From an uncultured Verrucomicrobiota bacterium (GTDB taxonomy: Bacteria; Verrucomicrobiota; Kiritimatiellia; SS1-B-03-39; UBA6053), in contig CAKZLZ010000060.1 of the NCBI GenBank assembly GCA_937127435.1, positions 1 to 64,000 of the forward strand: DNA of 64,000 nt. The letters run 5' to 3'. The position numbers and the translations under genes were made by a program. This document shows, piece after piece, positions 3,430 to 45,968 of this stretch. The notes beneath the pieces were generated by a model. It was not told the origin of the DNA. It ran no database searches and was given only the letters and a program-made list of their open reading frames with translations. Positions within the stretch are counted from its first letter, which is position 1. Each line of letters opens with the position of its first letter.

Positions 3430-3988
3430 AAAAAGGTAGTTCCGCGGTCCCCGCGGTAAACGATTGTTATGTTTTCCACGGGGACCGTGGAACTACGGAC
3501 TTGGAACTACGAACGTGAAAAGGTTCAAAAAGGTAGTTCCGCGGTCCCCGCGGTAAACGATTGTTATGTTTTCCACGGGGACCGTGGAACTACGACTTAG
3601 AACTACGAACGTGAAAAGATTAAAAATGTAATTCCGCGGTCCCCGCGGTAAACGATTGTTTGTTTTCCACGGGGACCGTGGAACTACGACTTGGAACTAC
3701 GAACGTGAAAAGATTAAAAAGGTAGTTCCGCGGTCCCAACGGTAAACGATTGTTTGTTTTCCACGGGGACCGTGGAACTACGGACTTGGAACTACGAACG
3801 TGAAAAGATTAAAAAGGTAGTTCCGCGGTCCCCGCGGTAAACGATTGTTATGTTTTCCACGGGGACCGTGGAACTACGGACTTAGAACTACGAACGTGAA
3901 AAGATTAAAAAAGTAGTTCCGCGGTCCCCGCGGTAAACGATTGTTTTGTTTTCCACGGGGACCGTGGAACTACGGCTTTGAACTAAGC
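3430..3988. repeat. Array of six ~95 bp tandem units, each a long imperfect hairpin
   Basis: GTAGTTCCGCGGTCC-like starts occur at 3436, 3533, 3628, 3722, 3817 and 3913, giving periods of 94-97 bp. In each unit a left arm (GTAGTTCCGCGGTCCCCGCGG) pairs with a right arm (CCACGGGGACCGTGGAACTAC) across a loop of about 17 nt holding CGATTGTT. The arms are not exact inverted copies: left CCGCGG faces right CCGTGG/CCACGG, giving a G-U wobble and one mismatch on the plus-strand RNA. The spacer (GGAACTACGAACGTGAAAAG) is conserved too. There is no coding potential. The array fills most of the gap between the SDR gene and waaA. Confidence 0.9.
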
Positions 3989-5394: not shown

Positions 5395-5788
5395 ACCGCG
5401 CCGGAATCGAATAAGGTATGCCCTATGGATTGTGGGGGTGATTTTGATCGGGGGCGCATCCCGTTTGCCGTTCACGGAAGGGTGGCCCTACCTGTACACC
5501 GAATATGCCGGTGATACCTTTTGGTCTCTAATGATTTTTCTGGGGATTGGATTTTTGTTTCCGACCTGGAAAACCATTACGGTGGCCCTGCTCACACTTA
5601 CATTTTCTTTCGGGGTCGAATTCAGTCAACTGATCCAAACGCCCGGGATGGATGCCTTGCGGGAAACCCTGTTCGGTAAATTGGTGCTGGGATCCGGATT
5701 CCGGGGCTCGGATTTTGTTTGTTACTCTCTGGGTTGTGCAATGGGCGTAGTGGGTGAGTGTATGCCGCGGAGAACTCTGACTGCCTAG
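5387..5788 (+). CDS. DUF2809 family small membrane protein
   Basis: I place the start at the GTG at 5387, which overlaps the waaA stop. The upstream ATG at 5348 only adds waaA sequence in another frame. The 133-residue protein has four hydrophobic segments and the family's motifs YAGDTFWS near residue 37 and GVEFSQL near 75, ending in a hydrophobic helix after GSGFRGSDFVCY. DUF2809 proteins are small integral membrane proteins of unknown function. Its 3' half is present again as a frameshifted copy at 15564-15835, which suggests that the DNA between was inserted by or duplicated with this gene. Confidence 0.8.
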   Translation: MGKPRRNRIRYALWIVGVILIGGASRLPFTEGWPYLYTEYAGDTFWSLMIFLGIGFLFPTWKTITVALLTLTFSFGVEFSQLIQTPGMDALRETLFGKLVLGSGFRGSDFVCYSLGCAMGVVGECMPRRTLTA

Positions 5789-5889
5789 TCACATATTATT
5801 CTCCCCTTTAGGCATTTGTATTTGATGGTTTACACAGAGGAATCAGGACAAGGAAGTGGAGGCTTCCTGGAAGCTTCGTCTTTAATTGG

Positions 5890-5960
5890 TATCACCAAAT
5901 AGCTGTGCTGTATCACGAATTGTATCTTTTATGGGGGGAGAGTTAAGCGTATCGTATAAA
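5890..5960 (+). promoter_or_regulatory. AraC-type direct-repeat operator and -10 element for the 5997 gene
   Basis: Half-sites TATCACC (5890) and TATCACG (5911) are exactly 21 bp apart, the two-helical-turn spacing used by AraC-family proteins. A GCGTATCGTATAAA block at 5947-5960 contains a TATAAA -10 candidate 44 bp from the second half-site. The same arrangement occurs upstream of 7910 and 8960. The rest of 5789-5996 shows no gene. Confidence 0.55.
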
Positions 5961-5996
5961 ATATTAATACAAATGTGGTGAAAGGAGAACAGTGAA

Positions 5997-6884
5997 ATGA
6001 CAACAAGAACAAACAGATTTATCCCGAAAATTTTAATTTTGGCCGTTATGCTGATGGTGACCGGGCATACGCCTGCGGCGCTTATTCACAGTTATTTGGC
6101 GAGTGACAGTGGGAATACCGTCTCCGAATGGCAGGACTTAACTGGTTCTGCCCACTGGACTTTTTCTCCAGCCGTGAATACTTTGAATGCCGTTTCCGGG
6201 TCCAATACGAGTTTCACACAAGCATATTCAATCTCAGATCCCCAAACTGATGGTGCATACGCTGATGCGATGCTGGAGGGAAGTGGCTCAGGAAGTGTTA
6301 CTGTCTGGTTTCGTAAAAATTTGCCCAGTATATTAGATGATCCTTACCAAGCGGTACTTTACGAGACGGGAGGTAGAACGAAGGGCTTTGCTTTACTTCT
6401 TGAGCGGAACGCCGCGGGCAATCTGAGTCTCCATGCGCAAACCAGTGGTGGTGCCGGAAGTGTTGATTTATACATCTCGCTGGATACCTTGGACCGCTCG
6501 GACTTTATACAAGGAACTGTTACATTTGATGGCAGCAATGCCAATCTTTACGCTTATGCCTCCAAGGACGGAGCGAATCAGAGCGGTACAGCGTCTAATA
6601 CATCCACAGACTTGTCCGGGAACAATAGTGCTGGACTGTTTAGTCAGGCAAACAATCCGAATGTGGGGGCCTCAATTTCCAATTCCCTTGGTGGTGGTGG
6701 TTCGGCACCTGGGTTTGACGGCGATATCGCGGCGGTCTATGTATATAATCACGCCTTAACCCCCACCGAAATTGAAACCCAGTTCAATTCTCTGGTTACG
6801 ATCCCCGAACCCGGAACACTTTTTCTGTTCGGTCTCTCGGCCATCGCAGTCCTTCTGGTTTCCCGCCACCGTCACGCGGTCTGA
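5997..6884 (+). CDS. PEP-CTERM sorting domain protein, LamG-like
   Basis: An exported protein of 295 residues with an N-terminal signal peptide (cleavage near THTPA-A, ~residue 27) and a C-terminal PEP-CTERM tail: IPEP at ~268, a hydrophobic helix, and a basic end (SRHRHAV). Such tails direct exosortase/EpsH processing and surface or matrix localisation. The middle (~35-260) has the beta-rich pattern of a concanavalin A/LamG-like domain (WFRK, GFALLLE, DGDIAAVYVYN near the end), which often binds glycans. AGGAG precedes the ATG by 8 bp. The divergently read AraC gene lies 37 bp downstream, tail to tail. Confidence 0.85.
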   Translation: MTTRTNRFIPKILILAVMLMVTGHTPAALIHSYLASDSGNTVSEWQDLTGSAHWTFSPAVNTLNAVSGSNTSFTQAYSISDPQTDGAYADAMLEGSGSGSVTVWFRKNLPSILDDPYQAVLYETGGRTKGFALLLERNAAGNLSLHAQTSGGAGSVDLYISLDTLDRSDFIQGTVTFDGSNANLYAYASKDGANQSGTASNTSTDLSGNNSAGLFSQANNPNVGASISNSLGGGGSAPGFDGDIAAVYVYNHALTPTEIETQFNSLVTIPEPGTLFLFGLSAIAVLLVSRHRHAV

Positions 6885-6921
6885 GTGTTACGCAACAATT
6901 CGTTCCTTTCTCTCCCAGCTG

Positions 6922-7731
6922 TTAACCCCGGGTTCGTGGAATCGGACGGTTGTACTTTTGTTTGTAGGCACGGCGGAAGGTTTGGAGAGAACTGAAGCCG
7001 CTGAGGCTGGCAATATTTTCGAGAGGAAGGTGGGTGCTGATCCCAAGAAGGCTCCGGGCGTGCTGGAGGCGGAGATCCCGGAGGAAATCGGAGGGGGATT
7101 CGTGGTATCGTTCATTAAATTCGCGGCTGAAATGTTCCCGGCTGATTCCGATTTCCGCACACCATTCTTTGAGGTTTTTTGATTCACGGTAGCGGGTTTC
7201 GAGCAGATGCCGTCCGTAGGCGACCGGATCGCGGTGGTGGGTGGTTGAACCTTGTTCACGGTACAGGTTCAGCAGCAGCTCATAAGCCAGACTGGCATGG
7301 GTAATCCGGTCGGAAGGTTGGCTGCTCTCGAATTCAAGGATCAGCTGGAGCAAAAGCTGATGGGCTTTGCCTCCGGTTTCCATGCGGAAAATATGTCCGC
7401 AATGTTTGCGCAGGTTTATAAAAAGTTTTGCGATACCCCCATCGGGGTTGATGACGGCGTATTCGGTCTCGTATGGGCGTTTGGAATTCGGACCCAGGTC
7501 ATAGTGGCTGTGGTCCCCATGTCTGAACAGCATGGCAAATTCAGGGATGACCTCTTGTTCAAAATCTCCGGAACGGAACCTGCAACTTCCCCGGACGGTG
7601 CGCTGGATCACCAAACAGCGGGTGGAAAGACGGTTCGTATTGTCCCACGAATAGTACCGGGTATGGTGAATTTCGCGGCGCGCAATGCGGATATCCGGAA
7701 GCCCGGGAGTGGTGGAGTCGGAGGATTTCAT
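6922..7731 (-). CDS. AraC family transcriptional regulator
   Basis: The protein has 269 residues if started at the ATG at 7731. A TTG at 7767 would add 12 residues but would run into the operator. The C-terminal ~100 residues carry two helix-turn-helix motifs: LKEWCAEIGISREHFSREF and the second, more conserved one, ENIASLSGFSSLQTFRRAYK. The N-terminal half is a beta-rich cupin-like sensor with motifs such as FRHGDHSHYDL. It is transcribed away from the 7910 PEP-CTERM gene, with the 21 bp direct-repeat operator between them. Autoregulation and control of the flanking genes are inferred. The ligand is probably a sugar but is not shown. Confidence 0.88.
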   Translation of the reverse strand: MKSSDSTTPGLPDIRIARREIHHTRYYSWDNTNRLSTRCLVIQRTVRGSCRFRSGDFEQEVIPEFAMLFRHGDHSHYDLGPNSKRPYETEYAVINPDGGIAKLFINLRKHCGHIFRMETGGKAHQLLLQLILEFESSQPSDRITHASLAYELLLNLYREQGSTTHHRDPVAYGRHLLETRYRESKNLKEWCAEIGISREHFSREFNERYHESPSDFLRDLRLQHARSLLGISTHLPLENIASLSGFSSLQTFRRAYKQKYNRPIPRTRG

Positions 7732-7740
7732 GTTTTGAAA

Positions 7741-7816
7741 TATCACGAAATGAACCACGGATATCAAGGATTGTTTCTGCTAAAAAGCTAAGGACTGGTG
7801 TAGCGTATCATATAAC
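7741..7816 (+). promoter_or_regulatory. AraC-type direct-repeat operator and -10 element for the 7910 gene
   Basis: TATCACG at 7741 and TATCAAG at 7762 are 21 bp apart. GCGTATCATATAAC at 7803-7816 gives a TATAAC -10 candidate 49 bp after the second half-site. The operator sits between the divergent AraC gene and the PEP-CTERM gene and nearly abuts the AraC start codon, so it could serve both. The same order and spacing recur at 8794-8869. Confidence 0.6.
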
Positions 7817-7909
7817 GAATGACTGAGAGGGATAAAGTATCGCACTGAAAGCTGATGTGGAACCCCTCATAAAAATCAAATTAAGAAAACAAACCCTGAG
7901 GCCCTAACC

Positions 7910-8656
7910 ATGAAAATAAAACTTTTACATCTATCGAAGTTCACCTTCTGTATGGGACTTGCTAGTGTGCTGGCATTGCCAGCCACGGCTGATGTTTTGC
8001 TTGGTTGGGAAACGGGGCTTGGGTTTGTGTCACCTAATAATGATGAAGAAAATTGGTATTGGGCCGTCGACGCTACGGCTAGTGATTCCAATCTCGAATT
8101 GACTTCTGCTTCATTAACTCCTGGAGAAGGGATTCTAAGTCACCCCGGGGGGGGGGATGATTGGAACACTACAAAACTTCGTTTTTTTAACTCGGAGTCC
8201 TATACCGCAGGAAATGGGACCATAGGGGTTGCAAAGACGGAAGGCGATTACTTTGAATTTACCCTGACACCTGATGCAGGGTACAAGGTTTCGGTTGATT
8301 CTCTGACCATATTTGGCAGTACTAGTTCTGGTGCAGTAACCTTAGAATTATTTTCAGACCATAACGGCGACAACTTCGCCACAAGTTTGGATATTAAATC
8401 AACGACTGACGCAGATACTGACATTGTGTGGGATATTCCTGCTTTGACCCCCCATCAAAATCTTACCTCAGCGGTTACCTTTAGATTATATGGTTACTCG
8501 ACGAGTGCCCCTAATGGTCACACCGTGAATATAGGAACCCGCGTGGGACCTGAAATTATTCTCAGTGGTACAGTTGCCGTCATCCCCGAGCCTTCATCTC
8601 TCCTCCTGCTGGGTATTGCGGGTGGGCTTGTGATGCTGTTCCGCCGTCGTGGATGA
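7910..8656 (+). CDS. PEP-CTERM sorting domain protein
   Basis: A 248-residue exported protein. The signal peptide covers residues 1-27 (cleavage after ATA), and the C-terminus is a textbook PEP-CTERM tail: IPEPSS, a hydrophobic helix, then FRRRG. The middle is a beta-rich domain with the pattern of a carbohydrate-binding or jelly-roll module (DYFEFTLTPDAGYKVSVDSL near 107-126, typical of secreted marine PVC proteins). The N-terminal ~18 codons and the upstream ~200 bp are duplicated around 8770-9020, where a deleted copy survives. TGAGG lies ~9 bp before the ATG. Confidence 0.85.
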   Translation: MKIKLLHLSKFTFCMGLASVLALPATADVLLGWETGLGFVSPNNDEENWYWAVDATASDSNLELTSASLTPGEGILSHPGGGDDWNTTKLRFFNSESYTAGNGTIGVAKTEGDYFEFTLTPDAGYKVSVDSLTIFGSTSSGAVTLELFSDHNGDNFATSLDIKSTTDADTDIVWDIPALTPHQNLTSAVTFRLYGYSTSAPNGHTVNIGTRVGPEIILSGTVAVIPEPSSLLLLGIAGGLVMLFRRRG

Positions 8657-8769
8657 AAGGCTGTTCAGCGGTCGAATCATTTTGATGGCGGGGGGGTGAC
8701 CGAGAAGAACCGTCCTCATTTTAGGATCGGTCCCTGTGGATTCCATCCTGTGGCCATTCGAGGGGGTTG

Positions 8770-8959
8770 GGTAGGACGGGTTTATTTTGTCGATATCACG
8801 AAATGAATGATGGATATCAAGCAATGTGGCTAATAATATGAATGTTACTCGTGTAGTATATCATATAATGAATATACAAAAGAATGAAGATCTGCAGTGA
8901 AAGCGTATGCGGGAACGTTCTTTAAAGATATGAAGGAAACAAATTAAGAGGTCCTACTT
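8770..8959 (+). promoter_or_regulatory. Second copy of the AraC-type operator/promoter, upstream of the 8960 mini-gene
   Basis: TATCACG (8794) and TATCAAG (8815) are 21 bp apart, followed 49 bp later by a perfect TATAAT at 8864. The region aligns with 7715-7909 over most of its length (for example ATATCACGAAATGAA, GGATATCAAG, GTGTAG-TATCATATAA), so it is a diverged duplicate of the AraC/PEP-CTERM intergenic region. It is placed to drive the 8960 mini-gene and the sulfatase cluster behind it. The remainder of 8657-8769 shows no gene. Confidence 0.6.
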
Positions 8960-9046
8960 ATGAAGACAGAATTTTTACTTCCATCGAAGTTCACACTATT
9001 TATTGGACCTGCCTTGATTCTGGTCCGTCCACGGCGTCGCGCATGA
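8960..9046 (+). pseudogene. 28-codon remnant of a PEP-CTERM gene, overlapping the next gene
   Basis: The ATG at 8960 follows AGAGG at good spacing and opens a 28-residue frame. Its start (MKTEFLLPSKFT) matches the start of the 7910 protein (MKIKLLHLSKFT), and its end (LVRPRRRA) resembles the basic tail of PEP-CTERM proteins. The whole middle is gone, as expected from an internal deletion. Its stop codon overlaps the ATG of the downstream gene (ATGA at 9043), so it may now work as a translated leader that couples to that gene, which has no ribosome binding site of its own. Confidence 0.6.
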
Positions 9047-10740
9047 AAATTGAAATCCCGTTTGTAAATTCTAAATGTAAAAACGTAAACGCTTGGCATA
9101 CTGGGGCGCAAACCTTGCTCCTATTGTTGGCGGTGGGCATCTGTGGCACGGCAAGGCCGGAACAGGTCCGGCTCGAGGTGGGTAATACCGTCTATGTATT
9201 GGAAGGGAACAGCTTCCGTACCGGAGTCTCAACCGACGGGGTGGGGTATGTGGTATCGAAGGATGACATAAGCGTTTTGCGGGTGGAACCGGAACCGGCC
9301 ACCGAGAAAGGGCATTTGATTCACGGTGCTCAACTGAATCCCCAGGTCGGGGAAAGCCAAGGGTATGACCAGCGTACGGATGCGGTGGGGGTAAAGGCCT
9401 ATGATGCGGCAAAGACTGCGAAATTTCCCCTCCGCATGTCGCCGGGGGATATACTGGTGAAGGCGGTTTCTTCGGTGGATATTCCTTATGGAAAGGGTGA
9501 ATTCCGCAGTGGCATTTTTGATGAATTTTCCGCCCTGATCGTAGTCAGCGAAACCCCGGACATGAAAGGAAGTCTGTTTGCCCCGGCGGTGATTGGCTGG
9601 TCGGACCGGGAACAACCAAAATTTCATGGGGTGGATTTGGATCAACTGGTCGCTTCTCTCCCGGCTTACGACACATCCATGATCCCCGCGGGAGAACGTC
9701 CGGATGTTGAAGATATAATTAAGCGCATCAATCAGTTTAACCCTCTCTATATGCAAAACTCCGGCACCTCGCCCGGGGCCGGATACCAGACCTTTTGTAT
9801 TCGGAACTGGCCTGAGGCCGATACGGGAAATTACGGGCTCAAATTGGTGGACCTGACCGATGCCGCCGGGTTGTTGTTGATTTCAGATTTGGCCACCCCC
9901 GAACAAAAACGGCGGCTGGCCATTGGCTTTATCTCCTGCGGCATTCAATGGCTGGATCCTGCAAAAGGTTTGGGTACGCAGCGTGGAGCCAACGGGGGAC
10001 ACCTGCAATGGTTCCAGTCAGCCGCCCTGTTCGCGCAATATGCCCGGGGGCTCCCCGTCGCTGACGTCTGGAATCACTTGCCCGGAAACTGGGCACAGGC
10101 CTTTGAGATTACAGACGAAGCCATGGAAACGTATTTTACCCCGCACCGGGATTTCAAAAAACCTTTTGCCTGGTATGTGCGGGAAATCACGGAAGTGAAG
10201 GGCAATAAAATCACCTTTCAAACCCAGCGTCTCCCGGGGAAGGCCGACCTGACCGGGCAACCGATGATCCGTCTCCGGGATGGCGCGCAGGCCCAGGTGA
10301 CCGGACCGAAAAGACGTAAAGGGGCTGGAAAAACCACTTCCGTGGAAATTGCGGGGCAACCGCAGGATCCTTTTGCTCCCGGAGATGAAATCTATTTCGG
10401 ACCGCAATACCCCATGGTGGCAGGGAATGTGGACTGGGCGGTTTTGCGGGCCGGGAAGGTATATCCGGATGCCGTCGAAAGTTTTGCCGCCCGTAAAAAT
10501 ACGCCGTATCGGGGGCTGAACAAATGGTCCGGCGGGATTCTGACTTCCGCCGCTCTGGGGATTCTGCCGGAAGAATTTTCCGCAACCCGAAAGTATGTGG
10601 CCGCCTGCAATACAGGGGAGGCACCCGAAGGGAGCACGGAAAAATTCGAAACCCACCATGCTGGTGCCTTTGTGAAAAGCTTCTGGGATGCGCACTGGAG
10701 CCGCATCCGCAGCATCCCCGCCCGCCCCGAAACTCCGTGA
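9043..10740 (+). CDS. Secreted protein of unknown family in a sulfatase cluster
   Basis: 565 residues with an N-terminal signal-like segment (TLLLLLAVGICGTA, ~29-42). No domain is recognised. Residues ~50-230 are beta-rich and repeatedly mention processed-looking segments such as GNTVYVLEGNSF. Residues ~240-400 contain helical stretches reminiscent of the alpha-helical domains of polysaccharide lyases or hydrolases (GIQWLDP, GGHLQWFQSAALFAQYARG). This is only an impression. The ATG overlaps the mini-gene stop and lacks a Shine-Dalgarno. It is 46 bp from the first sulfatase and is probably the first main gene of a four-gene operon. A role in sulfated-glycan recognition or cleavage is inferred from context. 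Confidence 0.75.
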   Translation: MKIEIPFVNSKCKNVNAWHTGAQTLLLLLAVGICGTARPEQVRLEVGNTVYVLEGNSFRTGVSTDGVGYVVSKDDISVLRVEPEPATEKGHLIHGAQLNPQVGESQGYDQRTDAVGVKAYDAAKTAKFPLRMSPGDILVKAVSSVDIPYGKGEFRSGIFDEFSALIVVSETPDMKGSLFAPAVIGWSDREQPKFHGVDLDQLVASLPAYDTSMIPAGERPDVEDIIKRINQFNPLYMQNSGTSPGAGYQTFCIRNWPEADTGNYGLKLVDLTDAAGLLLISDLATPEQKRRLAIGFISCGIQWLDPAKGLGTQRGANGGHLQWFQSAALFAQYARGLPVADVWNHLPGNWAQAFEITDEAMETYFTPHRDFKKPFAWYVREITEVKGNKITFQTQRLPGKADLTGQPMIRLRDGAQAQVTGPKRRKGAGKTTSVEIAGQPQDPFAPGDEIYFGPQYPMVAGNVDWAVLRAGKVYPDAVESFAARKNTPYRGLNKWSGGILTSAALGILPEEFSATRKYVAACNTGEAPEGSTEKFETHHAGAFVKSFWDAHWSRIRSIPARPETP

Positions 10741-10786
10741 ACAAAATTCCGAATAAACCCTCAACCCCATCCCACTAGATTCCCTT

Positions 10787-12160
10787 ATGAATAACCCCGC
10801 CGCGAGTGACCGCCCGAATATCGTTTTTATTAATACAGATCAGCAAAGTTCCCAGATGATGAGCTGTGCGGGCAACCGCTATTTGAAAACGCCCGCCATG
10901 GACCGGTTGGCGGAGGAGGGGATTTGTTTTAAACGGGCCTACACCACGAACCCGGTTTGTGTACCCGCCCGTTTTTCATTTTTTACCGGACGTATGCCAT
11001 CAGAATTGAATATCCGGACAAACAAACATGGAATGGCGCTTGAGAAAATCCCTGAAAACATTCTGCAAAATACGGCAGGTCAGCTATTAAAAAATGCGGG
11101 ATACCGGGTGGCGTATGGCGGCAAAACCCATCTTCCGGGAGATATGAGCCCCGAGACGATGGGCTGCGAAAATATCAGTGCGGATAAACGGGATGAACTT
11201 GCGCAGGTGAGTGCCGACTGGATTCGGGATCAGGGTGCCAAAGGGGATCAGCCTTTCTTTCTTTCGATCTGCATGGTGAACCCCCACGACATCTGTTTTA
11301 TGGGGATGCGTGATTTTATCCGCGAAACCCGGGGGGATGCCCCCGATCTCAATTTCAATGAAAGGTGGTTGCTGGGGGATGATTCGGTCGAAATGAGCGA
11401 GCTGAACCGGGCACTTTCCCTTCCGGAAGGCATGAGTGAAGAAGCGTTTTTTGCCAACCACTGTCCGCCGCTTCCCCCCAATCATCAGCCGCAGGAGGAT
11501 GAGCCGGAGGCTGTCAGAATGCAGATGGGGACCGAAGGGTTCCGTCACTACATTCGGGAAAACTGGGGTGAGAAAACCTGGCGCCTGCACCGTTGGGCCT
11601 ACGGCCGGTTGACGGAGCGGGTGGATGAGCAGGTGGGTGTGGTTCTGAAGGCAATCGATGATGCGGGATTGACGGAGAACACTCTGGTGATTTTCACCTC
11701 GGATCACGGCGACCATTCCGGTTCCCATAAACTGGATCAGAAAGTGATTCCTTATGAAGAGGCGGCCCGGATTCCGTTGCTGATGCGTTGGCCGGCCCGG
11801 ATTGCGGCGGGGCAGGTTGAAACAAAAATACCGGTGTCCAATGGGCTGGACCTGGTGCCGACTTTTTGTGATGTGGCGGAGTGTGTCGTTCCCGCGGATC
11901 TCAAAGGACAGAGTTTGATGCCGCTGGCCACGGGGAATCAAACTTCTCCATCCCGCGAGGCCATTCCTATGGAGTGGGAAAACGGACGGGGAATTGTATA
12001 CGGGGATATGAAATATCTCTTATACGATGAAGGGGGCAGCCGTGAGCAGTTGATGGATCTGGCTGGCGATCCCTACGAAACCAAAAACCATGTAAATGAT
12101 CCTGATTTACAGGAGGAACTTGCAAAGAGCCGGAAAGTTTTTGATCGGATGTTTGCTTAA
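10787..12160 (+). CDS. Sulfatase (type I, formylglycine-dependent)
   Basis: A 457-residue alkaline-phosphatase-fold sulfatase. It has the N-terminal metal-site motif NIVFINTDQQ and the activation motif C-V-P-A-R with Cys58, which the formylglycine-generating enzyme would oxidise. The Ala replaces the more usual Ser. GGKTHLPG, FTSDHGDHSG (metal ligands, near residue 303) and the C-terminal MDLAGDPYETKNH complete the pattern. No signal peptide is visible, so desulfation should be cytoplasmic unless exported by an unseen route. It probably removes sulfate from oligosaccharides taken up by the cell. No formylglycine-generating enzyme lies in the window. Confidence 0.92.
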   Translation: MNNPAASDRPNIVFINTDQQSSQMMSCAGNRYLKTPAMDRLAEEGICFKRAYTTNPVCVPARFSFFTGRMPSELNIRTNKHGMALEKIPENILQNTAGQLLKNAGYRVAYGGKTHLPGDMSPETMGCENISADKRDELAQVSADWIRDQGAKGDQPFFLSICMVNPHDICFMGMRDFIRETRGDAPDLNFNERWLLGDDSVEMSELNRALSLPEGMSEEAFFANHCPPLPPNHQPQEDEPEAVRMQMGTEGFRHYIRENWGEKTWRLHRWAYGRLTERVDEQVGVVLKAIDDAGLTENTLVIFTSDHGDHSGSHKLDQKVIPYEEAARIPLLMRWPARIAAGQVETKIPVSNGLDLVPTFCDVAECVVPADLKGQSLMPLATGNQTSPSREAIPMEWENGRGIVYGDMKYLLYDEGGSREQLMDLAGDPYETKNHVNDPDLQEELAKSRKVFDRMFA

Positions 12161-12219
12161 TGAATACAATCCTGAACTTTTTTCGAATCTATGTTAACCA
12201 CTGAATAGAGAAGTACCTT

Positions 12220-14019
12220 ATGCGCACCATTCATATTTGTCTTACGTGTATTTTATTGGGAACTGCGGTTCAGGCCGCAGACTTAAGGCTGGGGTTTCTC
12301 TTTCAAGACCACATGGTGATGCAAAGGGAAATTTCCGCTCCGGTCTGGGGATGGGCTGATCCGGGACAACAGGTCACCGTTTCTTTTGCAGGCGAAACTC
12401 AAACGGCCACCGCAGACAAGGACGGCTACTGGATCGCCATGTTTAAAGGGCTTAAAGCTTCCGATGTTGGACGTGTACTCAGGGTGACTGACGGCGACCA
12501 ACAGATTGAACGAAAGGATGTGTTGGTGGGCGAAGTCTGGTTCAGTGCCGGCCAGTCGAATATGGCGCGTTCGGTGGGGATGGACTGCAAAACTTTTCCG
12601 GTGGTGGCGGCCCGGATCGGGGAAACGGATTTTCCGGATGTGCGTTATATCCGCTTTGGAGGCACCCCCAGTCGGGAACCTTTGAAAGATCGTACGGATG
12701 CCGGAGTCAGTTGGAAAGCCATGTCTGATGAAACGTTTTTAAACAGCGAAGCCATTCCGTTTTTCTTCGGACGCCAATTGAATGAAGACCTGGATGTTCC
12801 GATCGGGCTGGTGCAGGTTGGGGTCAGTGGCACCACCCAAACCGCCTGGGCGTCAAAAGAAGTGTTGGACCGGATGCACGAGGACGGGATCAGCAAAAGT
12901 TTCGAGGAGTGGACTGGAAAAAGAGCCAATCTTGAAACCCCGAAAAAAAATGAACCCAGCGTGCTTTTTAACAGTCAGATTTATCCTTTTGCTCCGTTCG
13001 GAATGCGGGGACTGATTTGGCATCAGGGTGAAGCGGGCCCCCAGGAACAGCATGCGGAACGGATGGTGGAAATGCTGAAGTCCTGGCGGCAGTTGTTCGG
13101 GCACGATTTCATTTATCTATGGGGAGGGATGACCCGTAACGCCAGTAAATCCCCCCCTTTGGTCCCGGAGGCGCAAGGGAAGTTTTACCGGCACATGCGC
13201 AACCGTCAATTTATGGATGCCCAGAAACTTTTCGGCTATGACAGTACCTCCGCATTTGTCGATTTTTACGATCTCGGAAATGGTTATGGGCATTGGGGGC
13301 AAAAAGACATTGCCGGCATGCGCTTCGCCAAAGCGGCTTTGACCCTGGCATATGGGCAGCCACAGAACTTTGCAGGGCCTCAGAAAATTGACGCAAGTAT
13401 CGTTCCCGGGAAAGCGACAGTGTCCTTCACCCATGTGGGGGAGGGGCTTGCTTATCAACCTTCCCTCAATGGCATCAGTGGGTTTGTTTTTTATGATGGC
13501 AAGCAGGCCCGCTGGATTGAACCGCGGATTGAAAGCCCGGACACGCTGGTGTTTGAAGACCCGGCCATCACCCCCCGGACCGGAATATTTTATGGATGGG
13601 GAGGGAATCCGCATGAGACGCTGTTTAATTCGGAAGGGCTTCCGTCTTCTTCCTTCATGGTGGGGAAAAGCAAACAACCTGGAGGTGATGAGGGTTCCGT
13701 GGTATTATTGGACATTGTGAAGGGCCATAAAAAGGCAACCCTGAATGTGCTTCACGTCCGTCGTCATGTGGTGACCTGTGCGATTCTTCCCCGGAAGCTC
13801 AACGAGAACACGACCCTGCGCTTCTATCTGCCGGAAGAGTGGAGTGGCGTTGCGGTGGAACTCGATGGCGAAAAAGTGAAGACCGGTCCGGTAACCAGGG
13901 ATGAGCAGGGGCGCCGTTTCATGGAGTTTGAAGCTGAAGCCAACCGCTGGAGTTATATGCTTTATGATCCGGCCAGAGAAGCGGAAGCGCGCGAAGAAGT
14001 GGACTTTTCGCGTTCATAG
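12220..14019 (+). CDS. Sialate O-acetylesterase family protein (SGNH fold)
   Basis: 599 residues with a signal peptide (residues ~1-19, ending VQA). An N-terminal beta domain (~20-100) precedes the SASA esterase block I, EVWFSAGQSNM, whose Ser113 is the nucleophile. Further blocks include VGVSGTTQTAW and GLIWHQGEAG. A C-terminal beta domain follows. Members remove O-acetyl groups from glycans. In this setting it would deacetylate a sulfated or acetylated polysaccharide in the periplasm. It is the only enzyme of the cluster with a clear signal peptide apart from the unknown 9043 protein. Confidence 0.88.
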   Translation: MRTIHICLTCILLGTAVQAADLRLGFLFQDHMVMQREISAPVWGWADPGQQVTVSFAGETQTATADKDGYWIAMFKGLKASDVGRVLRVTDGDQQIERKDVLVGEVWFSAGQSNMARSVGMDCKTFPVVAARIGETDFPDVRYIRFGGTPSREPLKDRTDAGVSWKAMSDETFLNSEAIPFFFGRQLNEDLDVPIGLVQVGVSGTTQTAWASKEVLDRMHEDGISKSFEEWTGKRANLETPKKNEPSVLFNSQIYPFAPFGMRGLIWHQGEAGPQEQHAERMVEMLKSWRQLFGHDFIYLWGGMTRNASKSPPLVPEAQGKFYRHMRNRQFMDAQKLFGYDSTSAFVDFYDLGNGYGHWGQKDIAGMRFAKAALTLAYGQPQNFAGPQKIDASIVPGKATVSFTHVGEGLAYQPSLNGISGFVFYDGKQARWIEPRIESPDTLVFEDPAITPRTGIFYGWGGNPHETLFNSEGLPSSSFMVGKSKQPGGDEGSVVLLDIVKGHKKATLNVLHVRRHVVTCAILPRKLNENTTLRFYLPEEWSGVAVELDGEKVKTGPVTRDEQGRRFMEFEAEANRWSYMLYDPAREAEAREEVDFSRS

Positions 14020-14039
14020 AAAAACAAGGAATTAGAATT

Positions 14040-15425
14040 ATGCGCATCATCTACTTCGACATTGACAGTTTGCGGCCGGATCATTTGGGCTGCTATGGAT
14101 ACAGTCGGCCCACCAGCCCGAACATCGACCGTATCGCGGAGGAGGGGGCGAGGTTTAATCACTGCTATTGTGCCAGCTCCCCCTGTCTGCCTTCGCGTAC
14201 GGCCTGGACTTCCGGCCGTTTCGGCATCCGGAACGGGGTGGTATCCAATCACAGTGAGGGGGCGCAGTTTCACTTGCGTTGCAATCACTACGGGGGAGCA
14301 ATGGAAGACACCATGCTGTTGCCCCGGCAGCTCCGCCGTCTGGGTGTGCACACCGCAAGTGTGTCCACTTTTGCAGACCGGCATGCGGCCTATTATTTTA
14401 TGTGTGGATTTACGGATTTTCATACTCCCAATTTAAAATGCGGGGCGGAAACTGCGGAAGAGGTTACCGAAGCGGCGCTGAACTGGCTTGAGCACAATAC
14501 CCATCACGAACACAGTTTTCTGCATATCAATTATTGGGATGTTCACCGCCGCTATGAAGTGGATCAAAAGTGGCACGACCTGCTCGATTCGGCTCCGGTG
14601 GAGCAGACCTGGCCGGATGCGGAAGCGATTGATGACCACTATCGAAATGTCACCGGACCGTTTTCTGCCACCGGACAATTTAAAGACAACATCAGTATTT
14701 CGCCTTTGATGCCGGGTAAAATTTCAACCCGTGAGGAGTTTGAACATATGGTCACCGGTTATGACGCGACCATTGCCTGTGTGGACCACCACGTAGGGCG
14801 GATCCGTCAGTGGCTGGAGGAACGGGGACTGATGGAGGATACGGCCATCATTGTTAGCGGTGATCATGGTGACGCTTTCGGAGAACACGGCATCTACAGT
14901 GATCATGTATGTGCGGACGAATGTATTCATAAAATCCCCCTGGTGATCTCATGGCCAGGGGTGACGAAACCGGGGCATGTGAGTGATGAATTTCTGTATA
15001 ATTTGGATATTGGGCCGACGCTTTGTGATTTGTTTGAGGGAGAAGCTCCCAGCGACTGGGATGGCGCATCTTTCCGGAAAAACATGGAAGGCGAGCCCGG
15101 CCTGGACCGTGATTATTTGGTCTGGGACCACGGACTTTATACTGCGCAGCGCGCGGTGCGTACCAAAACCCATCTGATGATCCGCACCTATGACCAAGGC
15201 GACTTTTCCCACTTTGCCGAGGTGGAACTCTACGATATGATTGCGGATCCTTATCAAACCAAAAATTTAGCAAAGGAATTGCCGGAGGTGGTGGAACATT
15301 GCGACCGGCTTCTCGGGGAATGGATTGCGGAACAGCAGGCACGGGGCGACAGGATTCCTGATCCGCTGGCACTGATTGTGGAAAAAAGAAATGCCGCCGG
15401 CGTCGCGGTGAAGCCGCTCTCCTGA
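14040..15425 (+). CDS. Sulfatase (type I, formylglycine-dependent)
   Basis: 461 residues. The motif S-P-C-L-P-S-R gives Cys49 as the formylglycine precursor. The N-terminus IIYFDIDSLRPDHLGCYGY carries the Asp pair for Ca binding, and VSGDHGDAFGEHG (near residue 277) carries further ligands. A YDMIADPYQTKNLA tail is typical. There is no signal peptide. AAGGA lies upstream of the ATG, and the gene starts 20 bp after the esterase. It is clearly a different subfamily from the 10787 sulfatase, so the two enzymes probably desulfate different positions. Confidence 0.92.
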   Translation: MRIIYFDIDSLRPDHLGCYGYSRPTSPNIDRIAEEGARFNHCYCASSPCLPSRTAWTSGRFGIRNGVVSNHSEGAQFHLRCNHYGGAMEDTMLLPRQLRRLGVHTASVSTFADRHAAYYFMCGFTDFHTPNLKCGAETAEEVTEAALNWLEHNTHHEHSFLHINYWDVHRRYEVDQKWHDLLDSAPVEQTWPDAEAIDDHYRNVTGPFSATGQFKDNISISPLMPGKISTREEFEHMVTGYDATIACVDHHVGRIRQWLEERGLMEDTAIIVSGDHGDAFGEHGIYSDHVCADECIHKIPLVISWPGVTKPGHVSDEFLYNLDIGPTLCDLFEGEAPSDWDGASFRKNMEGEPGLDRDYLVWDHGLYTAQRAVRTKTHLMIRTYDQGDFSHFAEVELYDMIADPYQTKNLAKELPEVVEHCDRLLGEWIAEQQARGDRIPDPLALIVEKRNAAGVAVKPLS

Positions 15426-15563
15426 TTGTATGATCTGATCTGTATTTTAAAATATTTCATAAATTTAAGTTCTGACATTATGTAGTTTATGTATTTGTTA
15501 TGCAAACCTGCAAAACCGTTCATAATAAAAATGGTTCCGCACTTTTGCTTACGCTTTTGGTTG

Positions 15564-15835
15564 TTAATGATTTTTCTGGGGATTGGTTTTTTGTTTCCGA
15601 CCTGGAAAACCTCCACGGTGGCCGAGATCACACTTTCATTTTTTTCGGGGTCGAATTCAGTCAACTGACCCAAACTCCCGTGATGGATCCCTTGCGGGAA
15701 ACCCTGTATGGCAAGCTGGTGCTTGGATCCGGATTCCGGGGCTCGGATTTTGTTTGTTATGCTTTGGGATGTTTCATCGGAGTCATAGGGGAAGGATTGG
15801 CAACAAAGATTCAAGGGGTGAAGCCGCAGGGGTAA
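15564..15835 (+). pseudogene. Frameshifted 3' half of a second DUF2809 gene
   Basis: From TTAATGATTTTTCTGGGG onward this DNA matches 5528-5757 at about 85 percent by eye, in the same orientation. One base is missing in the run ACACTTTCATTTTTTTC relative to ACACTTACATTTTCTTTC, which shifts the frame. The downstream part still reads FFGVEFSQL and GSGFRGSDFVCYALG. The 5' half of the gene is absent. The flanks 15426-15563 and 15836-15979 show no gene. Confidence 0.85.
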
Positions 15836-15979
15836 TTCGTGAGGTGGGAAACATGGGCTGTGATTTGAATGTGTTGGACTTAACTTGCGAGATGTAATGG
15901 CTGACTTCGGTGACGACCTCTGTGAAATTCTTGACCGGAATGTTAAAATGTACAGTCCCTTTTCCCTAGGACATTGAAA

Positions 15980-17170
15980 GTGACAGAATCTCGTAATTTT
16001 GTTACAGATTCACTTGTGACTTCTTCTTCCAAGTTTCGGCGTGTGACGTTGCTCATCCATTTGAGTGAAGGCCTGCATGCTGGCCTTATTCGGGGCATCG
16101 GCCGCTACATGCAGGCGAACCGGGGTTGGGTGGTTCACCGTCGTGACGCGAATGTGCAGGAATGGAGCGAGGTTGTCGGTCGGCCTACGGACGGAGTCAT
16201 CGCCTGCCTACGGACAAAGGAGCTTCACGAGGCCGTTGCCGCGATGGGCGTGCCTGTGGTCAACGTGTGCGGGATCCCGGGAGAAGCGGGGAAAAGGGTG
16301 GTGGAACCCGACTACGCGGCCATCGGCTCCATGATGTGCCGGCATCTGACCGACCGCGGTCACCATGGACTCGCTTTTTACGGCAACCTGCGGGCGCCGG
16401 GACGGTCGGAGGTGCTGGAGGCCGCACGGCGGGAGGCCGCAGGGCTGGGGCTGACGGTTTCCTGCTTTGACCGGGGAGAATGGAGTCATTTGTCTAACCG
16501 CGATGCTGACGAACAATTTGGGGATTGGCTGGAGGCGTTACCTAAACCGCTGGGTCTAATGACTGCCGGCAGCGAGGACGGAATCTGCGCCATTCAACGT
16601 TGCCATGAAAGAAATTTCGATATTCCGGAACACGTTTCACTGGTCGGCTTGGCTACTGAGGAGGCTTTTATGGATCTTTCCTATCCACCGCTCAGTAGCG
16701 TACAGGTGGCCTGGCCGCGCCTGGGTTATGAGGCGGCGCGCCGAATGGATGCTCTGCTGGACGGAGCAACGGATCTACCTCTTCCCGTCCCCCAACCGCC
16801 CAGCGGGTTGACCCTCTGCCGCTCGTCCGAAGTCACCGCCATCGCAGACCCCAATCTGGCGGCGGCTTTGGTTTTTATACATGAGCATGCCGGACGCGCC
16901 ATTCCGGTAAACGAAGTGGTCCGGGTTGCCGGGCTTTCCCGCAGTGCGTTGGAGAGGCGTTTCGTTTCCAAACTCGGACGTACGGTTTTCCAGGAAATCC
17001 GCGATCAGCAGATCGCCCAGATCCGGGATCTTCTACTCGACTCAAATCTGACCCTCGACGAGATCTGCGACCGCTCTGCGTTCGCCAACACCGGTCACCT
17101 TTCCAACGCCTTCCGTCAGGCCATGGGTGAATCGCCTGGACGGTTCCGCCGCCGGTTTCAGTCTCCATGA
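15980..17170 (+). CDS. XylR-like transcriptional regulator (LacI-type sensor, AraC-type HTH)
   Basis: The protein couples a periplasmic-binding-like sugar sensor (~residues 20-280: GLIRGIGRYM, GVIACLRT, LGLMTAGSEDGI, VSLVGLATEEAFMDLSYPPLSSV) to a C-terminal AraC helix-turn-helix pair (~285-390: VNEVVRVAGLSRSALERRF and LDEICDRSAFANTGHLSNAFR). This architecture is that of E. coli XylR and is abundant in Planctomycetes/Verrucomicrobiota sugar loci. I chose GTG at 15980 because AGGA sits ~9 bp before it. A TTG six bases upstream would leave too little room. It lies just outside the DUF2809-flanked island. It may regulate the sulfatase cluster, the following PEP-CTERM gene, or both. The ligand is unknown. 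Confidence 0.9.
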   Translation: MTESRNFVTDSLVTSSSKFRRVTLLIHLSEGLHAGLIRGIGRYMQANRGWVVHRRDANVQEWSEVVGRPTDGVIACLRTKELHEAVAAMGVPVVNVCGIPGEAGKRVVEPDYAAIGSMMCRHLTDRGHHGLAFYGNLRAPGRSEVLEAARREAAGLGLTVSCFDRGEWSHLSNRDADEQFGDWLEALPKPLGLMTAGSEDGICAIQRCHERNFDIPEHVSLVGLATEEAFMDLSYPPLSSVQVAWPRLGYEAARRMDALLDGATDLPLPVPQPPSGLTLCRSSEVTAIADPNLAAALVFIHEHAGRAIPVNEVVRVAGLSRSALERRFVSKLGRTVFQEIRDQQIAQIRDLLLDSNLTLDEICDRSAFANTGHLSNAFRQAMGESPGRFRRRFQSP

Positions 17171-17207: not shown

Positions 17208-17305
17208 GTCTGGAATCAAAATTGTCCTCAATGCATACTGTTAAGAGATTAAATACGACTGAGCCCATGTCCGGCCCATCAACCTTGAACAAGAGAACAA
17301 ATAAC

Positions 17306-43424: not shown

Positions 43425-45968
43425 ATGAAGAGCCAGAATTCTCGTATCGTATCCCGTATCGCCCTGTCGTTTAGTTGTATCCTTGGTTTCAGTACGTTGC
43501 CTGTTCAGGCCCAGATTGTTTTGGGCGGCCCCGGAAATGTTTCCAGTGGGACTGACAGTACCTCAGGCGGAAATATGAACACGGCCAGTGGAAATAGTAG
43601 TACGGCTTTAGGTGATACCAATACGGCGACAGCCGCGGATAGTACTGCGGTCGGATCCGGCAATAATGCAACCGGAGATCGTGCTACCGCAGTGGGAAAT
43701 GCGAACAACGCATCCAACACGAATGCACAGGCTTTTGGATATGGGAATCAAGCGACAGGAGAAAATTCACTGGCGACGGGTACACTGAATACGGCAAGTG
43801 GTACCAATAGTGTCGCTTCCGGACTCACCAACACTGCGGACAATAACAATTCAGTTGCAACCGGGGTGGCCAACCAATCGAATGGAGTGAGCTCGTTGGC
43901 TACAGGGACCGCCAACACTGCAAGTGGTAACTTTACCACCGCAACCGGATCGAATAATACCGCCTCGGGTGTAGATAGTACCGCGGTGGGAACGATGAAC
44001 AACGCTTCCGGGGTCAGTAGTTTGGCCGTGGGGGATACCAACGTGGCCGCTGGCATCAACAGTTCGGCAGTAGGTGCCGGTAATACGGCCAACGGGATTA
44101 ACAGCACGGCTTCGGGCAGTTTGAACACAGCCAATGGTGAAGGCAGTACCGCATCCGGTTACGGCAACCAAACCCAGAACGATAATGCCACCGCAGTCGG
44201 ATCCATCAATGCCGCGGTGGGAATTAGAAGTGCCGCCACTGGTTTTAATAATGTGGCGGTTGCGGCTGACAGTACCGCCAGCGGTTCAAACAATACGGCT
44301 TCGGGTGTAGATAGCACGGCGGTGGGAACAATGAACAACGCTTCCGGGGTCAGTAGTTTGGCCGTGGGGGATACCAATACTGCCGCCGGCATCAACAGCT
44401 CGGCGTTGGGTGCCGGTAATACGGCCAACGGGATTAATAGCACCGCTTCAGGAAGTGCAAACACGGCCAACGGGGAAGGCGGCACCGCATCCGGTTACGG
44501 CAACCAAACCCAGAACGATTATGCCACCGCAGTCGGATCCATCAATGCCGCAGTGGGAGTAAGAAGTACCGCTGCCGGATTTAACAATGTGGCAGTTGCG
44601 GATGACAGTACCGCCAGCGGTTCAAACAATTCGGCTTCGGGTGTCGACAGTACTGCCGTGGGCTCTGGCAATCAGGCCTCGGCCGAGCGTGCTACCTCCA
44701 CCGGTTACAGCAACGAGGCGTCGGGCGCGGACAGTTTGGCTGATGGCTCGGGCAACACGGCCGGAGGGTTTCGTTCCACTGCCACCGGCGCTGGAAATTC
44801 AGCCTCAGGGAATGATGCGACTGCGAGCGGATCTGGCAATCAGGCCTCGGCCGAGCGTACCACCTCCACCGGTTACAGCAACGTGGCGTCTGGCGCGGAC
44901 AGTTTGGCTGCTGGCTCGGGCAACACGGCCGGCGGGGTTCGTTCCACTGCCACCGGCTCCGGAAATTCAGCCTCAGGATTAGACGGATCAGCTGTGGGGA
45001 GTTCAAACAGTGTTTCGGGTGACCTTTCCAGTGCCTTTGGTTATTCCAATCAAGTTTCCGGTTTGCGAAGCTTGGCTTCGGGTGCGAGTAACAGTGCTTC
45101 GGGAACGGAGTCTACGGCTGTGGGAAGCACAAACAATGCCGCCGGAGTGGGGGCGACCTCTTTAGGTCGCAACAATCAGGCGCTTGGTGATGAAAGTTTA
45201 GCCATTGGTTCCGGGAATCTGGCGAATGGGGAAGCTTCCATCGCCATTGGCCGGAACACGCAGGCCGCCTCCTCCGGGTCGGTGGCGATTGGAGACGGCG
45301 CGGTCGCCCTTTCATCGGTTGCAGTGGGCCCCGGGGCAAGAGCGACCGGATTGAATACCACGGCAGTGGGCGATTTTTCAACCGCCTCGGGTAGACAAGC
45401 CGCGGCCTTTGGTACAAATTCCCAAGCCGCCGGTTACCAAAGCACGGCATTGGGCTTTAATTCACGGGCCACCGCCAGCAACTCCGTTGCGTTGGGTGCA
45501 AATTCAGTAGCGGATGAACCTAACACGGTGAGTGTGGGTTCTTCCGGAAGTGAGCGTCGTATCACCAATGTTGCCAAAGGGATTCACAGTACGGATGCCG
45601 CCAATGTTCAGCAGGTGAAAGATCTCGAAAACAAGGTCTACCGGACTTTCGCCGAACAACGAGCATTGATTGATGCCAATACGGAGGCCATCCGGACGGT
45701 GGATGCCCGGGTATCGGATTTGAAAGAAAGTGCTTTTGCCGGTATAGCCGGGGCTGCGGCTATGGATGCGTTTATTTCCCCCTCTGAAGCTGGTAAAACC
45801 ACGGTGATGGCCGGTATGGGTTTTTATGAAGGGGAATCCGCCGTCGGGGTCACTGCGACCCACCGTATGAATGTAAATGAAAACACCGATCTCTACGTCA
45901 ACGGCGGGGTTTCCGTGACCTCAAATGAAACCGTTTTGAGCCGGGTCATGATCGGTACGGAATTTTAA
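43425..45968 (+). CDS. YadA-like trimeric autotransporter adhesin
   Basis: 847 residues: a signal peptide (~1-28, ending VQA), then about 50 head repeats of 14 residues on the pattern A-x-G-x-x-N-x-A-S-G (hep/Hag-type left-handed beta-roll). A neck/stalk with VGSSGSERRITNVAKGI (~710-730) and a coiled coil (VQQVKDLENKVYRTFAEQRAL) come next. Then a C-terminal YadA membrane anchor (~770-847, four strands ending in MIGTEF). It forms a homotrimer on the outer membrane for attachment. Internal 336 and 168 bp duplications show recent growth. It is followed only 4 bp later by an Omp85 gene. Confidence 0.92.
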   Translation: MKSQNSRIVSRIALSFSCILGFSTLPVQAQIVLGGPGNVSSGTDSTSGGNMNTASGNSSTALGDTNTATAADSTAVGSGNNATGDRATAVGNANNASNTNAQAFGYGNQATGENSLATGTLNTASGTNSVASGLTNTADNNNSVATGVANQSNGVSSLATGTANTASGNFTTATGSNNTASGVDSTAVGTMNNASGVSSLAVGDTNVAAGINSSAVGAGNTANGINSTASGSLNTANGEGSTASGYGNQTQNDNATAVGSINAAVGIRSAATGFNNVAVAADSTASGSNNTASGVDSTAVGTMNNASGVSSLAVGDTNTAAGINSSALGAGNTANGINSTASGSANTANGEGGTASGYGNQTQNDYATAVGSINAAVGVRSTAAGFNNVAVADDSTASGSNNSASGVDSTAVGSGNQASAERATSTGYSNEASGADSLADGSGNTAGGFRSTATGAGNSASGNDATASGSGNQASAERTTSTGYSNVASGADSLAAGSGNTAGGVRSTATGSGNSASGLDGSAVGSSNSVSGDLSSAFGYSNQVSGLRSLASGASNSASGTESTAVGSTNNAAGVGATSLGRNNQALGDESLAIGSGNLANGEASIAIGRNTQAASSGSVAIGDGAVALSSVAVGPGARATGLNTTAVGDFSTASGRQAAAFGTNSQAAGYQSTALGFNSRATASNSVALGANSVADEPNTVSVGSSGSERRITNVAKGIHSTDAANVQQVKDLENKVYRTFAEQRALIDANTEAIRTVDARVSDLKESAFAGIAGAAAMDAFISPSEAGKTTVMAGMGFYEGESAVGVTATHRMNVNENTDLYVNGGVSVTSNETVLSRVMIGTEF
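43971..44642 (+). repeat. Two tandem 336 bp units within the adhesin gene
   Basis: The start GTAGATAG-like sequence occurs at 43971 and 44307, and a third related start (GTCGACAG) at 44643, so two 336 bp units (112 residues, eight 14-residue repeats) lie in tandem. They share long identical stretches such as CTTCCGGGGTCAGTAGTTTG. The third start marks the beginning of a divergent unit. Confidence 0.85.
44667..45002 (+). repeat. Two tandem 168 bp units within the adhesin gene
   Basis: GGCAATCAGGCCTCGGCCGA begins at 44667 and again at 44835, 168 bp (56 residues, four 14-residue repeats) apart. Identity is high with few substitutions, so this duplication is younger than most of the repeat region. 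Confidence 0.85.

Follow-up and report, generated by a model that had tools for sequence, protein, structure and literature searches.

Organisation of the locus

The window analysed here is a 64,000-nucleotide stretch of an uncultured Verrucomicrobiota bacterium (contig CAKZLZ010000060.1, positions 1 to 64,000), and we examined an AraC-family regulator gene in it together with a tandem motif, TATCAMS-N14-TATCAMS, that occurs three times around this gene (Table 1). All three pairs lie on the plus strand, no fourth is present in the window, and none appeared in 100 dinucleotide shuffles; a chance origin of the motif pairs was ruled out by the shuffles and by the conservation in homologues described below. 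Each pair is followed by a TATAA element, starting at 5955, 7811 and 8864, that is 44, 49 and 49 bp past the second half-site, and the regulator gene lies among the three sites on the minus strand. This arrangement agrees with an earlier reading of the sequence (the original prediction), which had proposed that this one AraC-type regulator controls two PEP-CTERM surface proteins and a sulfatase/esterase operon. Both PEP-CTERM open reading frames (ORFs) scored above the Pfam gathering threshold (24.6 and 21.6 bits versus 20.7), and sulfatase and esterase genes do follow site 3.

The DNA-binding part of the regulator gave profile matches to the corresponding domains of Rob, MarA, SoxS and RamA. 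Approximately 165 N-terminal residues are conserved among its homologues and match no Pfam domain; a single-sequence fold of the protein had a predicted local distance difference test (pLDDT) value of 38.7 and was unusable. Downstream of site 3, a relic of a PEP-CTERM ORF ends in a TGA that overlaps the ATG of the next gene (ATGA at 9043-9046), so that a duplicated promoter at this position could now drive the gene of unknown family, the two sulfatases and the esterase. The unknown-family protein was assigned to no family in Pfam and NCBIfam scans, and its sole other match among 116 genomes was a 31% identical paralogue in the same genome.

Table 1. Features of the AraC/PEP-CTERM/sulfatase locus, in window coordinates.
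Feature	Position	Strand	Remarks
Left direct repeat (DUF2809 gene, 3' part; beside kdtA)	5518..5757	+	88% identical to 15554-15772
Operator site 1 (putative)	5890..5927	+	half-sites at 5890 and 5911; conserved CT past second half-site
-10-like TATCGTATAAA before PEP-CTERM gene 1	5950..5960	+	
PEP-CTERM protein 1, LamG/ConA-like domain, 295 amino acids	5997..6884	+	Pfam: Laminin_G_3 6.1e-07, PEP-CTERM 2.5e-05
AraC-family regulator, 269 amino acids, two C-terminal helix-turn-helix (HTH) motifs	6922..7731	-	Pfam: HTH_18 1e-18, HTH_AraC 2.3e-10
Promoter-like TTGATA-N17-GATATT for araC	7739..7767	-	minus-strand reading of both site 2 half-sites; consensus scan only
Operator site 2 (predicted)	7741..7778	+	half-sites at 7741 and 7762; ancestral position, araC upstream region
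Third half-site-like element, overlaps -10 TATAAC	7806..7819	+	+65 of site 2, p=0.012
PEP-CTERM protein 2, 248 amino acids	7910..8656	+	Pfam 2.3e-4, above gathering; TIGR02595
Operator site 3 (predicted)	8794..8831	+	half-sites at 8794 and 8815; duplicate of site 2
Third half-site-like element, overlaps -10 TATAAT	8859..8872	+	+65 of site 3, p=0.004
Relic of duplicated PEP-CTERM ORF, 28 codons	8960..9046	+	signal-peptide start, short RPRRRA end; starts like PEP-CTERM protein 2
Unknown-family protein, 565 amino acids, first gene past site 3	9043..10740	+	
Sulfatase	10787..12160	+	PF00884 8.7e-43
SASA-type carbohydrate esterase	12220..14019	+	PF03629 3.7e-08
Sulfatase	14040..15425	+	PF00884 2.6e-38
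Right direct repeat, second copy of DUF2809 gene 3' part	15554..15792	+	

The tandem motif is conserved upstream of araC across the phylum

We compared the locus with homologues of the regulator from eight other genomes of the family and with a paralogue on contig C158 of the same genome (41-64% identity). A profile search across the phylum (388 genomes) provided 25 further genomes with AraC homologues, 23 loci of which were examined; among named genomes, homologue searching yielded just weak hits from unrelated taxa. All nine family homologues carry TATCAC-n-WWW-TG...ATCAA with a spacing of exactly 21 bp, located between araC and the divergent gene and 18-38 bp from the aligned araC start, and the operator was recognisable in most of the 23 more distant loci. 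Among 27 non-window homologues, selected for having an alignable site, the upstream region of araC contains ATCAC-A-WWW-TGCA-N8-ATCAM with the same 21-bp spacing. The profile built from them comprises A at -2, ATCACA, WWW, TGCA, R14, ATCAM at positions 21-25, and C35 and T36; TCAC in the first half-site and TC in the second are invariant. A search of the 388 genomes with an exact consensus, ATCACAWWWTGCA-N8-ATCAM, gave 12 sites (reversed control, 0), all of them within approximately 80 bp of an independently found AraC homologue. This co-occurrence implies that the regulator normally has one private operator. To judge from these loci, the window AraC very probably has the tandem motif as its cognate operator.

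The ancestral partner of the regulator is also apparent from these loci. A divergent GH4 gene faces araC in 9/9 family homologues and in 19 of the 23 more distant ones. The GH4 assignment rests on PF02056 and PF11975 in two members tested, and for the rest on 70-84% identity to one of these; the nearest NCBIfam model was the alpha-galactosidase subfamily PRK15076, at 457.6 bits and thus under its cut-off of 486. At the window locus no divergent GH4 gene is present, and araC there faces a PEP-CTERM gene. Two other loci depart from the usual arrangement. In one (L106, contig C6 of G010), araC has eroded to an HTH remnant and the first half-site is broken, while GH4 and the ATCAAGC of the second half-site persist. 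In the other (L153:6314, contig C89 of G335), the neighbours of regulator and operator are a beta-galactosidase-like GH2 gene and a putative aldose epimerase, with no GH4. Since the regulator there has retained its operator next to GH2, the GH4 partner has been lost more than once.

Additional same-strand copies of the first half-site were found at +65 in genome G008 and in the window, and at +74/+75 in two further loci (L142 and L139). The copy in G008 (TATCACGTATTGTC) occupies the same +65 position as the third half-site-like element TATCATATAA that the -10 of sites 2 and 3 overlaps. In L142 and L139 the further half-site lies near the GH4 start, suggesting that control in this branch involves several sites or looping.

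Operator versus araC promoter

The minus-strand reading of site 2 provides an alternative explanation, namely that the conserved pair is merely the core promoter of araC, the direct repeat being a by-product of the promoter hexamers, with site 1 arising by chance and site 3 by passive duplication. On the minus strand TATCAA reads TTGATA and could serve as a -35 element, and ATATCAC, within TGTGATAT, could serve as a -10 element approximately 17 bp away; a promoter consensus scan picked exactly this pair. Position -2, which would pair with the final T of such a -10 element, is a conserved A in 23 of the 27 homologues, and in most loci 18-68 bp separate the operator from the aligned araC start. 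However, core promoters are not usually invariant at four contiguous bases across a phylum, and WWW-TGCA, R14 and C35-T36 are conserved though they fall outside the hexamers. Same-orientation copies of the half-site also occur at +65 and +74/75, distant from araC, and at sites 1 and 3 a promoter on the minus strand would have no gene to drive. We therefore regard the promoter-only explanation as very improbable. A dual role, in which an operator overlies the araC promoter at site 2, fits these patterns better than a promoter alone, and this overlap predicts autoregulation; the arrangement suggests that araC would be regulated by its own product through site 2.

The three predicted operator sites of the window

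Neither site 2 nor site 3 deviates from the family operator pattern. The sequence surrounding them is also related, since 7740-7962 and 8793-9012 are 71% identical and the likeness extends into the start of the PEP-CTERM ORF, showing that the two sites derive from a single duplicated segment and hence are not independent. Profile scores were 25.9 for site 2, 28.4 for site 3 and 14.9 for site 1, against a 99th percentile of 12.0 for a background pool that includes the true sites and so places a floor near 0.005 on the p-values. Site 1 departs from the family pattern at a single position; its two TATCA boxes, the spacing of 21 bp and the CT of positions 35-36 are intact. Its likeness to sites 2 and 3 is confined to the operator and the -10-like string. 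The chance of a site-1-like match in the intergenic DNA of the island is about 0.0015, as estimated from the 10 further genomic matches that have one mismatch; reversed-pattern counts from the scan of the 5.2-Mb genome were not used as a chance estimate, the reversed patterns having an unusual composition.

These data bear on whether site 2 is the sole working operator, with site 3 decaying after its duplication and site 1 matching by chance, in which case the regulator would control itself and one PEP-CTERM gene and not the sulfatases. In keeping with this, site 3 precedes a relic ORF and its segment is only 71% like that of site 2 overall, and site 1 is low-scoring. Against this, selection on site 3 is suggested by its score, which exceeds that of site 2 despite drifted surroundings, and by its retention of TATAAT and the +65 element, and the features preserved at site 1 would seldom coincide by chance. 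We consider a single working operator unlikely. Judged from the sequences, control by the regulator is likely through site 2, plausible through site 3 and uncertain through site 1; control of all three transcription units is thus plausible, least so for the unit behind site 1.

Genome-wide search for the operator

The original prediction proposed looking genome-wide for the motif pair ahead of PEP-CTERM or sulfatase genes, and expected the pair to be enriched upstream of genes. The strict pattern had one other match in the 5.2-Mb genome, located in a coding region. A relaxed search yielded 27 TATCA-N16-TATCA pairs, most of them intragenic, an outcome largely contrary to that expectation, and among these pairs only those of the window and of the native araC/GH4 locus fitted the operator. 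One further pair (C134:50648) does lie 60 bp upstream of another PEP-CTERM gene, as a genome-wide regulon would have it. Here TCAC is missing its final C and the TG box is absent, and the site was judged a chance match. The exact operator pattern was found in the genome only at sites 2 and 3 and at the native GH4 locus, and the other family genomes have about one exact operator site apiece. It is thus hardly credible that TATCAMS pairs place many PEP-CTERM and sulfatase genes under this regulator. The assignment of the AraC-type tandem operator to this AraC is supported, and the genome-wide regulon is not.

Origin of the island and divergence of the regulator

The AraC, PEP-CTERM and sulfatase genes are contained in a 10-kb island, from approximately 5789 to 15550, bounded by the DUF2809 direct repeats. 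In the nearest relatives (genomes G004 and G002) the same DUF2809 gene follows kdtA without the island, and the repeat pair is absent. In a protein tree the window AraC grouped with G008 and G009, which belong to another genus (support 95/93 and 99/98), whereas the C158 paralogue grouped with G004, a member of the same genus as this genome. In the GH4 tree, too, C158 paired with G004, and G008 stayed with G009. Misbinning of the contig was rejected as the reason for the unusual position of AraC in the tree: kdtA is present as the genome's single copy, is closest to that of G004 (84%), and the guanine plus cytosine (GC) content of the contig matches the genome. Lateral gain of the regulator together with its operator is the best explanation of these relationships, ahead of an ancient duplication followed by loss elsewhere. 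The locus is probably a laterally acquired, rewired local regulator.

We also compared recognition helices with operators. The helix of the first HTH motif, SREHF, is conserved nearly everywhere, as is TCAC. The helix of the second motif reads QTFRRAY in the window protein versus mostly QTFH/YRAY in the family, and the window operators carry TGAA instead of TGCA; the operators of the window AraC and of the native C158 AraC are ATCACGAAATGAA and ATCACATTTTGCA, respectively. This suggests, on very few changes, that the second helix and the operator have co-diverged. A more specific scenario, which we put forward tentatively and would rate somewhat below an even chance, is that a sugar regulator with one target was taken up from a related genus, parted from its enzyme gene and, through multiplication of its private operator, turned into the switch of a new local circuit. 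Its second helix (to QTFRRAY) and operator (TGCA to TGAA, and A to G after TCAC) would have changed together, insulating it from the native, GH4-facing paralogue on the other contig.

Several other features lie near the island or elsewhere in the window. A XylR-like regulator, with a periplasmic-binding-protein domain and an AraC HTH, is encoded directly after the island (15974-17170), and another PEP-CTERM gene starts at 17222. Upstream of kdtA, a 96-bp unit that contains a palindrome is repeated in tandem at 3430-3985 (5.8 copies, 95% alike), and a 28-bp piece of it recurs on C158 after an FeoB gene (L027:7167-7194). At 58-1249 a homologue of a 471-amino-acid ORF of G004 is reduced to its C-terminal 204 residues; similarity to G004 begins at 626, suggesting a rearrangement or an assembly joint. 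The window also encodes a YadA/Ata-like trimeric autotransporter-type protein (43425-45968).

A model for rewiring of the regulator

Taken together, these comparisons make it fairly probable that the window AraC acts with its own operator and was rewired within the island from GH4 to PEP-CTERM and sulfatase genes. In the ancestral state, the regulator would have stood opposite a GH4 alpha-galactosidase-like gene with one operator, (T)ATCAC-A-WWW-TGCA-N8-ATCAM, in between. The genome's second copy of the regulator, nearest to those of another genus, lies in the 10-kb island together with its operator and lacks GH4. The promoter region of site 2 and the start of the PEP-CTERM gene were duplicated to 8794-9046, ahead of the unknown gene, the two sulfatases and the esterase, and a weaker third pair, site 1, lies in front of another PEP-CTERM gene. 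We infer that a dimer, probably bound to a sugar, would occupy the two half-sites, which lie 21 bp apart on the same face of the DNA, and activate the plus-strand promoters from upstream. Binding at site 2 would also tune araC, as the same DNA overlies the minus-strand promoter-like element, and the +65 element may keep the regulator at the promoter in the ligand-free state.

Several points weigh against this model. At site 1 the first half-site contributes 2.7 bits (11.8 at each of the other two), and the -10 element is closer by 5 bp, or half a helical turn, than at sites 2 and 3. The promoter consensus scan found no sigma-70 -35/-10 pair at the proposed plus-strand -10 elements. Site 3 may be just a passive duplicate, and the co-occurrence of operator and araC, taken alone, could also reflect conservation of the araC promoter. 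Finally, the branch of the window AraC is long (0.56), and fast evolution could affect its exact placement in the tree.

Comparison with known systems

MelR of Escherichia coli is an AraC-family regulator transcribed divergently from the gene for the GH4 alpha-galactosidase MelA (melAB), and it is reportedly autoregulated. Because MelR also faces a GH4 gene, it appears by analogy to be the nearest functional parallel: homologues of the window AraC face a GH4 gene nearest to the alpha-galactosidase PRK15076, and the window system shares with MelR several sites in the same orientation and, as predicted from sequence, autoregulation. The window protein itself had no match to the NCBIfam MelR model NF007693 at E<=1e-3. 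Unlike MelR, it would use another operator sequence, and GH4 has been replaced in the window by PEP-CTERM and sulfatase genes. With a native and a probably transferred paralogue and both of their operators in one genome, the locus offers a tractable case of natural regulatory rewiring.

The original prediction had drawn on the binding of AraC-family proteins to direct repeats about two helical turns apart, and 21 bp is indeed the usual period: AraC, XylS, MekR, MtlR and CdhR recognise two direct-repeat half-sites with a period of 21-22 bp, as the window repeat does (PMC4514859, PMC5806209). A stronger upstream and a weaker downstream half-site has been reported for MtlR, MelR and RhaS, and CdhR binds in a divergent intergenic region and is a proposed repressor of its own gene (PMC4514859, PMC5806209). 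The half-sites themselves differ. XylS recognises TGCA-N6-GGNTA-N6 and CdhR recognises GGTCGC with a 15-bp spacer (PMC4514859, PMC5806209); unlike in XylS or AraC, the two conserved blocks of the window half-site start closer together, 8 bp apart. A limited open-access literature search found no published description of the half-site ATCAC-A-WWW-TGCA. The present analysis provides a predicted operator, at base resolution, for a regulator family spread across the phylum.

The locus would also tie the expression of PEP-CTERM surface proteins, the regulation of which is little known, to an AraC-type sugar regulator; our literature search found no paper that combined PEP-CTERM, AraC and Verrucomicrobia. 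In other bacteria PEP-CTERM genes can be under control of the PrsR/RpoN type, a two-component/sigma-54 system (PMC9850573, PMC1569441). The window circuit, as proposed here, resembles that system in the transcriptional control of exosortase cargo genes. Unlike PrsR/RpoN, its regulator is of the AraC type, local and probably responsive to a sugar.

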